Source: Bacteroidota bacterium (GTDB lineage: Bacteria > Bacteroidota > Bacteroidia > Cytophagales > Thermoflexibacteraceae). From it: a stretch of 33,134 nucleotides of DNA. The stretch covers positions 1-33,134 of the forward strand of contig RDXG01000202.1 of NCBI GenBank assembly GCA_004292785.1, in the 5' to 3' direction. The notes under the pieces are model-generated. The model was not told the origin of the DNA. It did not search any database and worked only from the letters and a program-made list of their open reading frames with translations. This document shows, one piece after another, positions 5,143-32,119 of the stretch; position 1 is the stretch's first letter; every line of letters starts with the position of its first letter. The position numbers were made by a program, and so were the translations under genes.

Positions 5143-5619
5143 TTATTTTTCTGTATTTGGCTTTATTCGTTGCTTAGTTTGCCCTTTAAAACGTTGTTGA
5201 AGTTGTTCAGCAACTGTTTTCATTCCTGCTTCAGACTTCGCAGCGGTTTTTACATAATCATACACGGTCAAAGATGCTTTCATTGCTTCGTTGCCTATAA
5301 CAATGGAAGTATCATTTAACTTTTCGTTTAATGTATTTAATAATAATTGTAGTTCAGATAATTGTGTAAATAGTTTGCTATCTTTGGCTAACTCTACTTT
5401 GTCAAAATTAGCAGGTAAAATATTAGGATAGTTTTCTGCAACTTGATTACAGTTATTTACAAAGTCTGTACTTTTTGAGCCTAATTTGAACAAATTACGC
5501 TTTTCATCTACGCTTAATGCAATCAAAAAAGGCATTTTGTTGCCTATTAATTGAATTGCATCTTTAATTGCTTGTAAATCTGTATCAGAAATACTAGCAG
5601 AAATGTTTTGATACGCCAC
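5143..5619 (-). CDS. Conserved-type hypothetical helical protein (GTG start proposed; ORF track extends it to 5649)
   Basis: ORF reads (V)AYQNISASISDTDLQAIKDAIQLIGNKMPFLIALSVDEKRNLF...; the first codons of the longer ORF overlap the 21-bp repeat, and a GTG at 5619 directly precedes the plausible N-terminus. Confidence 0.6.
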   Translation of the reverse strand: MAYQNISASISDTDLQAIKDAIQLIGNKMPFLIALSVDEKRNLFKLGSKSTDFVNNCNQVAENYPNILPANFDKVELAKDSKLFTQLSELQLLLNTLNEKLNDTSIVIGNEAMKASLTVYDYVKTAAKSEAGMKTVAEQLQQRFKGQTKQRIKPNTEK

Positions 5620-5624
5620 GATAA

Positions 5625-5855
5625 ACAAATTTATATAATAAAAGAACAAATTTATATAACCAATTAGTAATATTTACGTATCTAAAAATAAAAAGTTGTC
5701 TTTGATTAATAAATTTTACTCTTTAAGCAATAAATTTTATTAATAAACGAGTAGTTTTTATTATTAAGCGAGTAAATTTTATTAATAAACGAGTATAATT
5801 TAGTGTTAAGTGAGTAAATTTTACTGTTAAAAAATATATTTTATATAAACGATTA
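5625..5855. repeat. Degenerate tandem repeat array, 21-bp period (about 11 units; best six at 5709-5834)
   Basis: Units in strict 21-bp register: ACAAATTTATATAATAAAAGA / ACAAATTTATATAACCAATTA / ... / ATAAATTTTACTCTTTAAGCA / ATAAATTTTATTAATAAACGA / GTAGTTTTTATTATTAAGCGA / GTAAATTTTATTAATAAACGA / GTATAATTTAGTGTTAAGTGA / GTAAATTTTACTGTTAAAAAA. Confidence 0.85.
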
Positions 5856-5918: not shown

Positions 5919-6563
5919 ATGAAAACTTCAAATTTTAAAGATTGGACTTTAACAACATTAGATAAAACTTTTGATTTATGTCAAATTTTAGATTATAAAT
6001 GTCAAATATTACAAGATTGGCAAAAGTTAGCTGCTACTTTTGAAGTATCTGATTTTGAAAGTCAAAATTTGCTTAATCTGCAAGAACCATTACAATGGGG
6101 TGGAAAAGCATGGAATGAAACAGAACTTGAAAACAAATTTATTAGTCCTGTAATCATGTTGGCTAAAATTGATGATCGAATTGTTGGTTATTTTTTAGAA
6201 CGACCTTTAAAAGCCGTTGTAAAAAACTATGAGCTTTCTGGAATTGTTGATGGAATGATTGCTACAGGTTTTCGTGATCCTGATGTACCATTTTTTTGTA
6301 TGCACGAATATAAACGTAGTGTAGATAATCATGGAAATCCTGATGCACAAGCATTGGCTGCTATGTTGGTTGTTAGAGAGCTTAATAATAATAATAAACC
6401 AATTTACGGGTTATATATTGTAGGTTTAACTTGGAACTTTATAGTCTTAAATGCAAATGAATATTGTGTTAGCAAAGATTATAAATCAGATAATGAAGAG
6501 CTTTTTAATATTTTTAAGATGCTAAAAGCATTAAAACATATTATTAGGACAGAATTGATGTAA
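5919..6563 (+). CDS. PD-(D/E)XK nuclease-superfamily-like protein (orphan, 214 aa)
   Basis: NETELENKFISPVI (E69 helix), SGIVDGMIA (D111), FFCMHEYKR (E130-Y-K132) and DAQALAAML (Q144) follow the E...D...ExK...Q order of HsdR-N-like PD-(D/E)XK domains. Confidence 0.65.
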   Translation: MKTSNFKDWTLTTLDKTFDLCQILDYKCQILQDWQKLAATFEVSDFESQNLLNLQEPLQWGGKAWNETELENKFISPVIMLAKIDDRIVGYFLERPLKAVVKNYELSGIVDGMIATGFRDPDVPFFCMHEYKRSVDNHGNPDAQALAAMLVVRELNNNNKPIYGLYIVGLTWNFIVLNANEYCVSKDYKSDNEELFNIFKMLKALKHIIRTELM

Positions 6564-10574: not shown

Positions 10575-13500
10575 ATGCAAAACGCCCAAAACTATTTCCA
10601 AGATTTACAAAAAATTGACAATCAAGAACTTAGCGAACATTCTTTAAGAACGGCACTCGAAAACTTGTTGAACCAAATCAAAGCCGAAGCCGAATTTTTG
10701 AAAGAAGTAAACATTTTGCAAGAAGGCAAAAGAATCGGCAAATCAGGTGTGCCTGATTTTAGAATCACGTCTTCAAAAGGAAGTGTTGGTTACATCGAAA
10801 CCAAAAAAATTGGCGAAAATTTGGCTGAAATCGCAGTTTCTGATCAAATACAAAAATACCAAGAACTCAACGACAATATTTTATTGACCGATTATTGTGC
10901 ATTTTGGTGGTTAAAAGGCAATACGATTGTCCAAAAATTAGACTTTTGTCAGCCCGAAGAAGTGGGAAATATCGAGGCAAAATTTGATTCTGAAAAAGGG
11001 CGAAAGCTAGAAATTTTGATCCAAAATTTTTTGAGAGAAACCCCAAAAGGAGTCAATAATGCACACGATTTGGCGAAAGCTTTGGCGGTAAGAACGCGCT
11101 TTTTGAAAAATAATTTGCAAGAACTTTTGCAAAGCCAAATCCAAAACGAAGAATTACTGCCTTTGAGAGGTTTGTACGATTATTTTAAAAGCATTGTTTC
11201 TGACGAGTTTAGCATCAAAAATTTTGCTGATACTTTTGCGCAAACTTTTTCTTACAGTTTGTTTTTGGCAAAACTCAACGCCGAAAATCAGGTTTTGACT
11301 TTGCAAAATGTCAAAAATTTTATTCCTATTTCCTTTGGCGTAATTCGTGAAATTGCAGGCTTTTTGGAAAAATTGGAATCTGACGAATACAGAAAAATAG
11401 CTTGGGTTATCAAAGAAATTATCAATGTAGTCGATAATTTGGATTTAGAACCGATCCGAAATAGCCTTTCGTTTAACAAAAATATACAAGTTCAAAACGA
11501 AACCGCCGCCGACCCTTATTTGTATTTTTATGAAGATTTTTTAGGGCAATACGACCCAAAATTGCGCAAGGCAAAAGGCGTTTATTATACTCCTCCTGCG
11601 GTAGTAAATTTTATTGTCAGGGCAATAGATCAGGTTTTGCAAAAAGATTTTCAGATCGAAAGCGGTTTGGCAGACAAAAACAAAGTTACAGTTTTGGATT
11701 TTGCCACAGGCACAGGAACGTTTATTTTGGAAATTTTGAAAGTCATTTTTGAGAAAATTCCGCAAGATTCCACATACAGAAACGATATTGTGCAAAATCA
11801 TATTCTCAAAAATTTGTACGGTTTTGAATATTTGATTGCCCCTTATACGGTTGCGCATCTCAAATTATCGCAATTTTTAAAGGATAATGCCTATGATTTT
11901 AACAAAAAAGATCGTTTGCAAATTTATCTAACCAATACGCTAGAACCGCTTGAAACACAGCCCAATTTTTTCTTACCTGAACTTTCAAAAGAGGGAACAA
12001 AAGCTCAAAATTTGAAAAAGCAACCTGTTTTGGTGATTTGTGGAAATCCGCCTTATTCATATCATTCTGCCAACAAAAATAAATGGATTTTGGATAGAAT
12101 TAATGAATATAAAAAAGTAGGAAATGAAAGTCTTGACGAAAAAAACTCGAAAGGATTACAAGACGATTATGTCAAATTTATTCGTTTTGCAGAATGGAAA
12201 ATGCAACAAGTGGATCAGGGAGTGGTGGGTATTGTTTCCAATCATTCGTTTTTAGACAATCCTACTTTTAGGTTGATGCGAAAAAGTTTGATGAACACTT
12301 TTGGGCATATTTATTTGATTGATTTGCATGGAAATGCCAAGAAAAAAGAAACAACTCCTGAGGGACAAAAAGATCAAAACGTTTTTGACATCGAACAAGG
12401 TGTAAGTATTTCTATTTTTGTCAAAAATCCTAAAATCACGGAATCTAAGATTTTTTATGCCGATTTTTATGGCACAAGACAGCATAAATTTGATTTGTGC
12501 CTCGAAAACGACCTTAAAAGTATAGATTGGCAGGTGCTTAATCCAAAAATGCCTTTTTATTTGTTCAAACCACAAAATATTACGCATGAAGTTCAATACA
12601 ACACTTTTTGGTCTGTGAAAGATATTTTTAATGTGCAAAGTGTGGGTGTGGTTACTGCTAATGACAATCTATTAATGGCTAAAAATTTTAAAATCCTCAA
12701 TAAAAGGGTTGAAAAATTGATAACTGCTGAAGATGCAAGGCAAATAGTAGAATGGTTTAAATTGGACAATAAATATAAACCTATCTTAAAAAAGTTTTTA
12801 CAAGATTTTGAAAATGGTACAAAAAAACGTGAAAATGTAAAAATAGATGCCATTAATTATAAGCCATTTGACAAACGAGTTCTTTGGTACGACAATGATT
12901 TGGTGGAGAGAATGAGAAGTTCTTTTGTTAAAAATTTTGAACAAGAAAACATAGGACTTGTATTTGTGCGATCTACGTCTAATATTCCTTATTCTCACGT
13001 ATTGTGTGTGGACAAACCAATTGTTGGAAGATTTTTTACTGATGCGGCTTGTGTGAGTTATCTAAGCCCACTTTACGTTTACCAAAAAAAAGAACACAAA
13101 TTAGACCTAAACCAAAATCCAAAATATGCTCGCAAACTCAAAAAATTGCAAAAAGAGTTTCAAATTGCAGAAGAAGTTTTGGAAGAAAGCAAAATTTTAG
13201 CAGAAAATATTGCTGATGGCAAACAAAAAAATGTTTTTTTAGATAGTTTAAACAAGGTTTTTGAAGAAGCCAAAACTTGTTACGAAAAAAATATTTCCAA
13301 TTTGGAAAGCGAATACAGCACGCAAAAACCAAACGCAAACGGCTATGAAAAAACTGAAAATTTTACGCCCGCTTTTCAAAAATTTTTGGAAAATTACAAT
13401 GATGACGCAAGTCCTGAACAAGTGTTGGCGTACATTTATGCCGTTTTGCACAGCCCAAATTACCGCTTGCAATATGCAGATTTTTTGAAAATGGATTTTC

Positions 13501-13895
13501 CTAAAATTCCTTTTCCTAATTCTTTGCCAACTTTCGAAAATTTAGCAAGGCTCGGTCAGGAACTCATAGATGCCCATTTGTTGCGCAAAATTCCAGCTCT
13601 GGAAGTAGGTATGGCAATAGGAAATGGCACAAATGAAGTGTCTGAAATTCGTTATGTATCCGAGTCTGAGGTTTTGGGCAAAAAAATAGGCAAACTTTAC
13701 TACAACAAAACCCAATATTTTGACAAAGTTAGTCCCGAAATTTGGGATTTTCAAGTGGGAGCTTACAAAGTTTTAGAAAAATATTTGAAAGATCGCAAAG
13801 GCGAAATACTTGAAAATGAGGAAGTTAGGCATTTGGAAAACGTGATCAAAGTTTTGGCTTTTACGCTAGAAAAAATGCTAGAAATAGACAAATAA
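10575..13895 (+). CDS. Single-polypeptide restriction-modification enzyme: PD-(D/E)XK nuclease + N6-adenine methyltransferase + Type ISP-like C-terminal specificity domain (Type IIG-like)
   Basis: N-terminal SGVPDFRITSSKGSVGYIETKK (D61...E75-x-K77); MTase motif I LDFATGTGTFILEIL; motif IV GNPPYSYHS; C-terminal part (LVERMRSSF...NIGLVFVRS...FPNSLPTFENLARLGQELIDAHLL) resembles LlaBIII-type specificity domains. No SF2 helicase motifs seen. Confidence 0.88.
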   Translation: MQNAQNYFQDLQKIDNQELSEHSLRTALENLLNQIKAEAEFLKEVNILQEGKRIGKSGVPDFRITSSKGSVGYIETKKIGENLAEIAVSDQIQKYQELNDNILLTDYCAFWWLKGNTIVQKLDFCQPEEVGNIEAKFDSEKGRKLEILIQNFLRETPKGVNNAHDLAKALAVRTRFLKNNLQELLQSQIQNEELLPLRGLYDYFKSIVSDEFSIKNFADTFAQTFSYSLFLAKLNAENQVLTLQNVKNFIPISFGVIREIAGFLEKLESDEYRKIAWVIKEIINVVDNLDLEPIRNSLSFNKNIQVQNETAADPYLYFYEDFLGQYDPKLRKAKGVYYTPPAVVNFIVRAIDQVLQKDFQIESGLADKNKVTVLDFATGTGTFILEILKVIFEKIPQDSTYRNDIVQNHILKNLYGFEYLIAPYTVAHLKLSQFLKDNAYDFNKKDRLQIYLTNTLEPLETQPNFFLPELSKEGTKAQNLKKQPVLVICGNPPYSYHSANKNKWILDRINEYKKVGNESLDEKNSKGLQDDYVKFIRFAEWKMQQVDQGVVGIVSNHSFLDNPTFRLMRKSLMNTFGHIYLIDLHGNAKKKETTPEGQKDQNVFDIEQGVSISIFVKNPKITESKIFYADFYGTRQHKFDLCLENDLKSIDWQVLNPKMPFYLFKPQNITHEVQYNTFWSVKDIFNVQSVGVVTANDNLLMAKNFKILNKRVEKLITAEDARQIVEWFKLDNKYKPILKKFLQDFENGTKKRENVKIDAINYKPFDKRVLWYDNDLVERMRSSFVKNFEQENIGLVFVRSTSNIPYSHVLCVDKPIVGRFFTDAACVSYLSPLYVYQKKEHKLDLNQNPKYARKLKKLQKEFQIAEEVLEESKILAENIADGKQKNVFLDSLNKVFEEAKTCYEKNISNLESEYSTQKPNANGYEKTENFTPAFQKFLENYNDDASPEQVLAYIYAVLHSPNYRLQYADFLKMDFPKIPFPNSLPTFENLARLGQELIDAHLLRKIPALEVGMAIGNGTNEVSEIRYVSESEVLGKKIGKLYYNKTQYFDKVSPEIWDFQVGAYKVLEKYLKDRKGEILENEEVRHLENVIKVLAFTLEKMLEIDK

Positions 13896-29998: not shown

Positions 29999-32119
29999 TT
30001 ATTCTTTTACATTAATGTCAATATTAAATGGTTTCCCATCTTTTATAGCCTCTGGTGCTAAAAAATTGGCATATTTTTGACGTACTTCCTCTGAAACGGC
30101 TTGGTCATTGACTTCCATTATTTTGTCAGTCAATTTGATTTTAACATTTTTTGAGTCAGAAATTAAACCGTCTTTCTTCAATTCTTCACGCATTTTTGTG
30201 AACTTTTCTTCCTGTTCTTGCGCATTTTTTTCATGTTTTTGTGCATTTTTTTCATGCATTTGTGCTAATTTTTCATGTCTTTCAGCCATTTTTTCATGAT
30301 TTTTGATCATTTTTATGTGCTGAATTTTCATGATGGAATCTTGTTTTTTGCCAAACTTGTCCATCTGTTTTTCAAAACTCCTTTGTTCTTTTTCGAAGTT
30401 TTTTTGGTCTTTTTCAAACTGTTCTTGTTGTTTTTGGAAATGCTTATCCAAATTTTTCAACTCCACTTCTGTTTCTTCTTCGCCAAATCTGTTGTTCATA
30501 CGAATAACAATTTTTTTGCCTAAAGAATCGTTGGTAAAAATTTTGACCGAATTTTTGATTTTTTTGCTCACGTCTCGCAAAGAATCAGAATTGAAATGAT
30601 AGATAAAATGATCGCCATTTTCCGAATCTATTTCTACAAAACCATGACGCACAGGCGGCACAGGTGGAGCTATATCAGGCATTTCAAAATTGAAATTTGT
30701 AGAGTCAAAATTGAAATTAAAATCAAAATTCGACAATTTGTCTTCTGCATCTTCTACTTCTGCCAAAGATTCTTTAATGCTTTGTTCGATCTCGATTTTG
30801 GTCATTTTCTGGTCATTTTTGCCCGTTTTTTCTTCGATCAAATCTCTGTATTGGTCAATATCTGAACCAGAAACTTTCTGACCGTTTACAAAAAGTTGCG
30901 TAATTTTGCCTTTTTTGTTTTTCACAATTACCAAAGATTTCTTTTTTCCTGTCGAATCTTCGAGAGTCAAAATGTCGGCTTCTAGGCTTTCGTCTTCCAA
31001 AATTTCCAGAATTTCATTGGTTTTTTTCTGATTATTTTCTTGGATTTTGTCTTCAAAAACATTCAAATTTTCGTTTTTCCATTCTGAAAAATTGGCGTTT
31101 GCAACCAAAGACATTGCCAACAAACCAATAATCATCAAGCAACCTGCCGTAAAACCTTCTGAAAAAGTAGCATTTTTTTGTTTACTTGTTCCCAACAACA
31201 TTCTTTTGATTCGATTCAACAATTTGCCATCTTTGCCCGAAATTGCCATCGCAAAACGCGGTGTTTGCAAATTCATTTGTTCCAAATTGGTTAAGGCTTT
31301 CGCAAAAGTCAAAGAATCTCCGCAAACACTGACCGCCAAATCATCACAACAATTTTCTCTTTCTTCAGAAATTAAGCGCGAAATCCACCAGATCGCAGGG
31401 TGAAAGAAAAACGTAATTTCTATTAAAGATTGAAAAATATTGATCAAATAATCGTTTCTGCGAATGTGCGCCAACTCATGCGCCAAAATACTCTCGATTT
31501 GTTGAGCAGAAAGCCCTGTAATCAAACCCATCGGCAACAAAACCACAGGTTTAAAATAGCCAATCGCCATTGGAACGTTCACCAAAGCCGATTCTAAAAT
31601 TCCAACTTTTGTATTGATTTGTAATTTGTACGCCAATTCGTCAATTTTATCTTGCCAAAGCGTAGCCAAAGAAATGGTTTTATACGATTTTAAGCGTTGC
31701 ACATACGCCCAAGCCCCCATAAAACGCAAACTCAACACCAAAATTCCCAACAACCAAATCGTTACAATTAAAGGCAAATGTTTTTCGAAATAACTGCCAA
31801 AATCGATCATTTGCGGCTCGGATTCTTGCGAAAAACTTGCCTGATAAACCACAGAAACGTTGTTAGAAAGCGTATTTTGATTTGCAAAAATTTGCTGTTG
31901 TTCTGCCGATTCGTAAAGATTTGCAAAGGTCAAACAAGACAAGATCAAAGCCGAAAACATGGCGATCATTGCCGTAAAATAGCGCGTTTGCGAAGAATGT
32001 TTATGCAAAACCAACATCAAAACTGCCAAAATAATAGCAATAAGGGCAATTTGCCACAAAGAATGTAGGATTGTCCAGCCCATAGCTTGAACAAAAGCCT
32101 GTGAAATGAATGGGATCAT
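29999..32119 (-). CDS. BlaR1/MecR1-type M56 family metallopeptidase with coiled-coil C-terminal extension
   Basis: TM-rich N-terminus, VPMAIGYFKPVVLLP, ILAHELAHIRRNDYLINIFQSLIE, FFHPAIWWISRLISEERENCCDDLAV; C-terminal EKMAERHEKLAQMHEKNAQKHEKNAQEQEEK. Confidence 0.93.
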   Translation of the reverse strand: MIPFISQAFVQAMGWTILHSLWQIALIAIILAVLMLVLHKHSSQTRYFTAMIAMFSALILSCLTFANLYESAEQQQIFANQNTLSNNVSVVYQASFSQESEPQMIDFGSYFEKHLPLIVTIWLLGILVLSLRFMGAWAYVQRLKSYKTISLATLWQDKIDELAYKLQINTKVGILESALVNVPMAIGYFKPVVLLPMGLITGLSAQQIESILAHELAHIRRNDYLINIFQSLIEITFFFHPAIWWISRLISEERENCCDDLAVSVCGDSLTFAKALTNLEQMNLQTPRFAMAISGKDGKLLNRIKRMLLGTSKQKNATFSEGFTAGCLMIIGLLAMSLVANANFSEWKNENLNVFEDKIQENNQKKTNEILEILEDESLEADILTLEDSTGKKKSLVIVKNKKGKITQLFVNGQKVSGSDIDQYRDLIEEKTGKNDQKMTKIEIEQSIKESLAEVEDAEDKLSNFDFNFNFDSTNFNFEMPDIAPPVPPVRHGFVEIDSENGDHFIYHFNSDSLRDVSKKIKNSVKIFTNDSLGKKIVIRMNNRFGEEETEVELKNLDKHFQKQQEQFEKDQKNFEKEQRSFEKQMDKFGKKQDSIMKIQHIKMIKNHEKMAERHEKLAQMHEKNAQKHEKNAQEQEEKFTKMREELKKDGLISDSKNVKIKLTDKIMEVNDQAVSEEVRQKYANFLAPEAIKDGKPFNIDINVKE

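Follow-up and report, generated by a model that had tools for sequence, protein, structure and literature searches.

The region between two divergently transcribed genes in a 33,134-nucleotide stretch of a Thermoflexibacteraceae genome (hereafter the window) is filled by degenerate 21-bp units, raising the question of whether these are the remnants of a tandem repeat, or sites kept for a function. The array itself, at positions 5625-5855, is real. Autocorrelation confirmed the 21-bp register reported in the preliminary description, with a peak far above shuffles: identity at lag 21 was 0.62 across the array, eight standard deviations over dinucleotide shuffles, and 0.71 within 5700-5840, with the top values over lags 5-59 in 1000 such shuffles being 0.51 and 0.54, respectively. 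The only strong lags were 21, 42, 63 and 84, with no peak at 7, 10-11 or 14, and Tandem Repeats Finder called a repeat of period 21 (also 42) at 5710-5830. The GC content of the array is 16%.

Along the lattice that starts at 5625, the identity of each unit to the next was 17, 8, 8, 13, 15, 16, 17, 14, 15, 7 and 12 out of 21 bases. The core consists of six solid plus-strand units in exact register (5709-5834; consensus GTAAATTTTATTATTAARCGA), identified by Tandem Repeats Finder, autocorrelation and unit-by-unit comparison. The last of these also placed two extra plus-strand units (ACAAATTTATATAAnnnnnnn) on the same lattice at 5625-5666, which match one another at 17 of 21 positions and each contain TAAATTTG on the minus strand. 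Two decayed units at 5667-5708 score weakly as reverse-orientation units against a profile of the genome's own units, and one more decayed unit lies at the right-hand end (5835-5855); the orientation of units across the array is weakly divergent. Hence the exact register of the approximately 11 consecutive units originally described has stood, although the count was generous, as beyond the six solid units and the pair the others are decayed. There is no alternation of conserved repeats with unique spacers, as would characterise a CRISPR, and no cas operon is present among the ORFs neighbouring the array. Elsewhere in the window, a 21-bp repeat at 30204-30435 is an ordinary coding repeat that specifies heptads in the coiled-coil part of a minus-strand M56/BlaR1-like protein (29999-32119) and has no relation to the intergenic array, and a stand-alone type IIG restriction enzyme-methyltransferase is encoded at 10575-13895 (PADLOC REase_MTase_IIG, E 6.7e-254).

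The position of the array invites an explanation based on local control, in which tandem operator sites or promoter boxes would regulate both flanking genes. On the minus strand, 5143-5619 encodes a protein of 158-168 aa (start at 5619 or 5649), with patchy relatives within the family; on the plus strand, 5919-6563 encodes a PD-(D/E)XK nuclease-like protein that matches PADLOC's Cas-associated model of this fold (PD_DExK, E 1.6e-10) and has no Pfam or NCBIfam assignment. Genes of the cysN/cysD type are also neighbours at this locus. The array fills the divergent intergenic region between the two genes, and the TAAATTTG boxes, on the minus strand at 5654 and 5633, are closely upstream of the 5143 gene. 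The preliminary description had read these boxes as TAnnTTTG promoter elements. Both are present, yet their occurrence is close to chance, with 84 TAnnTTTG matches in the whole window; neither has a partner TTG at the usual spacing upstream, and sigma-70-type matches did not exceed those in shuffles. Nor were similar arrays found beside homologues of the flanking genes at the loci checked, an absence which that description had named as refuting its reading. The two loci examined with relatives of the 5143 gene (G001 and G011) lacked adjoining tandem repeats, and a link to this gene was rejected. The family of the 5919 gene has approximately 44 matches in the 3.7-Mb source genome (including loci L032-L060), several in tandem (contig C325) and some truncated; among the copies fetched, the only one with an array was that in the window, and the array was rejected as a piece of this gene family. 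Hence the array appears to be part of a dispersed intergenic element, rather than of either gene. Local operator function is further disfavoured by the only other array of the same consensus, which lies between convergent genes with no gene start beside it, and is considered distinctly unlikely.

This second array emerged when the source assembly (391 contigs) was searched by BLAST, by pattern, and with a profile model built on sequence alone; all three agreed on one further array of the same consensus: 13 units at 12981-13253 of contig C128, with no indel. It separates the ends of an amylase-like gene (plus strand) and a glycosidase-like gene (minus strand), as named by sequence inspection, and all of its units point in one direction. 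A 374-kb sample of the source genome contained no other intergenic period-21 arrays. The genome search for same-consensus arrays proposed in the preliminary description therefore yielded one, which is not beside homologues of the 5143 or 5919 genes. The context of these arrays is independent of the identity and orientation of the adjacent genes, being convergent on C128, divergent at 5625-5855, and of all kinds in relatives.

The two arrays together provide 19 units, with the consensus GTAWAWTTTRNTATTAAGNGA, through which constraint can be distinguished from drift. The main rival to a functional interpretation is that replication slippage generated an intergenic 21-bp minisatellite that has no function and is now decaying. 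Such arrays do have the head-to-tail tandem units of more than 10 bp expected of a minisatellite or VNTR, they lack a conserved gene neighbour, and intergenic tandem repeats are common in relatives, where some are near-homogeneous. In the array at 5625-5855, unit identity at lag 2 (42 bp) is slightly above that at lag 1, which suggests the array was made by tandem duplication of dimers. However, several features of the units misfit unconstrained decay. Firstly, columns T2, A3, T7, T8 and T9 are invariant across all 19 units, whereas columns 11 and 19 vary almost at random (p < 0.001 when permuting mismatches among columns with an A/T consensus). Secondly, between neighbouring units of the C128 array the five invariant columns never change, while column 11 changes in 11 of 12 steps; hence the contrast is not explained by a shared origin of the units. 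Thirdly, the free columns contain all four bases evenly, and so A/T mutation bias is not its cause. Fourthly, local homogenisation was not observed: likeness was 14.4 of 21 bases between the unlinked arrays, and 14.9 and 14.6 within them. Fifthly, the 13 and 6 units contain no indels, despite approximately four to five substitutions per unit. In a drifting satellite, units should resemble one another most inside their own array, and register should be lost, whereas a set of binding sites fits the observed pattern; the invariant columns and unbroken lattice thus look more like sites under constraint. A functionless minisatellite, while a serious possibility, is regarded as rather unlikely.

Two further mechanisms raised by the preliminary description fared less well. 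The first was that A/T tracts phased by the 21-bp period would intrinsically curve the DNA. The low GC content and period are compatible with this idea, but predicted curvature was at or below that of dinucleotide shuffles (z of -0.7 at 5625-5855 and -1.7 on C128, with most other arrays around zero or below), using a dinucleotide-wedge model, in which a positive control of phased A6 tracts was strongly curved. The 10-11 bp periodicity of phased A-tracts is likewise absent, making curvature highly improbable. The second was that the units represent a decayed heptad-coding sequence on the minus strand; an active one was considered as well. The described peptides are indeed present in the sequence, and the frame SLNxKxY is open through six units at 5625-5855 and all 13 on C128. 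However, a 21-bp unit that is open in one frame repeats that openness, and hence such frames are expected of any repeated 21-mer. Variation was highest at the third codon position (6.7 bits), then the second (5.4) and the first (3.5), rather than following the coding order of third, first and second; in addition, the frame lacks a start codon served by a ribosome site, and is closed on either side. Coding is hence the least credible of the explanations considered.

Comparable arrays recur in other Cytophagales, albeit with different units. A pattern of two units of the source-genome consensus, allowing one mismatch, matched only two of the 391 genomes of the order: the source genome (G000; eight matches) and G064 (one match, a two-to-three-unit array directly after a terminator), with no matches to a backward control. 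A looser pattern of five A/T-core units identified arrays in G069, G082, G127, G169 and G254 besides the source genome; a match in G042 was rejected as a 7-bp repeat. A class-wide sample added only one 21-bp array (G519) and one 7-bp repeat, while in viral contigs the two-unit pattern had no matches, and the long pattern found one 7-bp repeat and a single 21-bp array of unrelated appearance. Many matches from a scan of the whole collection were discarded as 7-bp repeats of the (TTTAGTA)n type, and profile-model matches in relatives with E above approximately 1e-3 were mostly chance. Similarity to the source-genome consensus was significant only for G064 (p 0.002) and G127 (p 0.013), values which are flattering, as the arrays were found by pattern; it was not significant for G082, G069 or G169 (p 0.2-0.7). 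Hence a single ancestral 21-mer behind all Cytophagales arrays was rejected. What appears to recur is mainly the 21-bp lattice, not clearly common ancestry. Pattern searches favour a 21-bp outcome, but an unbiased 289-kb sample of G082 contained two tandem arrays, both of period 21 or 42, and hence the period in that genome is not a selection effect.

The most ordered arrays were those of G082, the Microscillaceae MAG SKYG84, of which 19 were examined. All share a unit of approximately TTTAATACTAAATGTTTAGTT, consisting of a palindromic 12-bp core, TTTAnTAnTAAA, and a 9-bp asymmetric spacer; of 15 genomes of the family, this alone has that consensus. They lie between unrelated, mostly housekeeping genes, such as lysS, ligA, nadD and an ispE-like gene, as judged by sequence inspection. 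Column conservation ranges from 93% to 40%, and the 147 lattice units contain 794 substitutions and no indels, a count taken on stretches picked for an unbroken lattice; near array ends, there are a few breaks in register. Unit likeness was 13.3 of 21 bases between loci and 14.0 within them. In 15 of the 19 arrays (for example L149:12031-12345, L284:1150-1548 and L286:1320-1739), the lattice continues unbroken from forward units into reverse ones, and the opposite order was never seen; a model-free G/C count gave the same convergent layout in 16 of 17. This pattern of facing half-arrays is stronger than that of the array at 5625-5855, and the convergent architecture was not seen in the source genome, in which the C128 array is one-directional and that in the window weakly divergent. 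Eleven of the G082 arrays had no shared flanking sequence, and a MITE or other dispersed mobile repeat, copies of which would share ends or flanks beyond the unit, was rejected.

The array could alternatively act through a long imperfect hairpin, as RNA or as a cruciform. Predicted folding of the array at 5625-5855 was somewhat below that of shuffles (z -2.3), with pairing on one shared axis, and the G082 arrays had z of -2 to -9. By contrast, z was -0.4 on C128 and +0.2 for the L100 array of G069, and Rfam gave no match for the array. Mirror-image unit pairs in G082 did not clearly exceed other pairs in likeness; hence the hairpin as such is not being kept, and selection on it was rejected for want of mirror covariation. 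The inverted borders of arrays in G069, also a Cytophagales MAG, nevertheless fit a hairpin. All four arrays examined there (L100:1001-1572, L142:8796-9225, L143:1925-2300 and L144:13241-13793) are bordered by runs of inverted heptamers, GGTTTAA or GTTTAAG on the left and TTAAACC or TTGAACT on the right. Some begin no more than a few bases from a start or stop codon, and a tie between polarity and transcription was rejected, as unit orientation relative to genes is inconsistent. Taken with the evidence on both sides, a hairpin element is very unlikely.

The explanation that best accommodates these data is that the array at 5625-5855 is a helically phased docking row for a putative DNA-binding protein, a reading held tentatively and put at somewhat below an even chance. 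Same-face binding had been suggested from the outset, and this remains the best interpretation, now joined by column conservation, an indel-free lattice and a second array of the same consensus. It is favoured because of the contrast between invariant and free columns, the equal likeness of units within and between arrays, and the lack of indels; because of the exact two-turn period without other periodicity, in a gene-independent context; and because the ordering of units in G082, convergent in 15 of 19 arrays and divergent in none, would not be expected of drift. Against this, the source genome has just two arrays, and palindromy of the unit is partial, as half of the units pair at column 4 and column 11 is free. 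Furthermore, arrays in G127 and G069, including a 42-bp array in the latter that is 96% identical, are near-homogeneous, as a young minisatellite would be.

Under this docking reading, the protein would bind as a dimer and recognise the A/T core TAnAWTTTA, which is quasi-palindromic in part. Sites two helical turns apart would place protein copies on the same helix face, enabling them to touch one another and form a phased nucleoprotein assembly, with binding that is probably cooperative. The role of such an assembly may be at the level of the chromosome, as an insulating or organising intergenic site, rather than in the control of the two flanking genes. The array probably originated by tandem amplification, of which the similarity persisting at the level of 42-bp dimers would be a trace, followed by divergence under constraint.

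Known systems resemble this arrangement in part. Plasmid iterons and partition centromeres, such as ParR or ParB-type sites, are direct repeats of approximately 20-22 bp with same-face spacing and motif-like conservation. The array at 5625-5855 shares their unit length and exact helical phase; unlike them, neither array of the source genome has a replication-initiator or partition gene beside it, and relatives carry several dispersed arrays per genome. Bacterial minisatellites and VNTRs are similarly intergenic tandem repeats with units of more than 10 bp, but differ in that the units here exhibit no local homogenisation, strong and unequal column constraint, and exact register. In prokaryotic genomes, phased A-tracts generate a genome-wide 10-11 bp signal tied to curvature (PMC3431218, PMC3940949); the array likewise has A/T tracts related to the helical period, yet only multiples of 21 bp and no excess curvature. 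The nearest published case is that of the intergenic TAACTGA heptamer repeats of Beggiatoaceae, cyanobacteria and five Bacteroidetes (PMC4679880). These repeats, like the STRR sequences of cyanobacteria, are also scattered between lineages, intergenic, present in some Bacteroidetes, without a common neighbour function, and suspected but unproven to bind a regulator. However, they are near-perfect copies of a 7-bp unit, often just upstream of start codons (PMC4679880), whereas the units here are 21 bp and degenerate, with no 7-bp signal at lag 7 or 14, and no start-codon preference. No paper on a class of 21-bp arrays in Bacteroidetes or Cytophagales was found in a search that mostly covered literature outside subscription journals.

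A wider proposal is that the Cytophagales arrays constitute a hitherto undescribed class of dispersed intergenic docking sites, with genome-specific 21-bp units kept in helical phase by a co-evolving putative DNA-binding protein, and half-arrays facing one another in some genomes, which would organise or insulate the chromosome between unrelated genes. This generalisation is viewed as rather unlikely. Were the units docking sites, they would represent a dispersed, helix-phased nucleoprotein element absent from current annotation, the sequence code of which varies from genome to genome, and which in one lineage has a strict inward polarity independent of neighbouring genes. It could then be tested which protein reads the lattice, and whether it serves chromosome organisation or the separation of transcription units. 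Were they only repeats, the case would instead illustrate how a decaying array may be told from an array of binding sites, through column constraint, the count of indels, and likeness within and between arrays.

Tandem arrays of 21-bp units were also observed in other bacteria, with units that either are hairpins (TTTTCTACTGATAGAAAATAG, TTTCCTACTCATTAGGTAGGA) or contain an inverted ACTC...GAGT (TTTGATACTCAACGACGAGTG, TTTTTTACTCAACGACGAGTC). These hairpin or inverted-unit arrays occur in Chitinophagaceae (L196:3235-3429 and L199:1412-1691), a Bacteroidetes MAG (L187:1632-1842), cyanobacteria (L171, L174, L180 and L189) and Flavobacterium amniphilum (L184).
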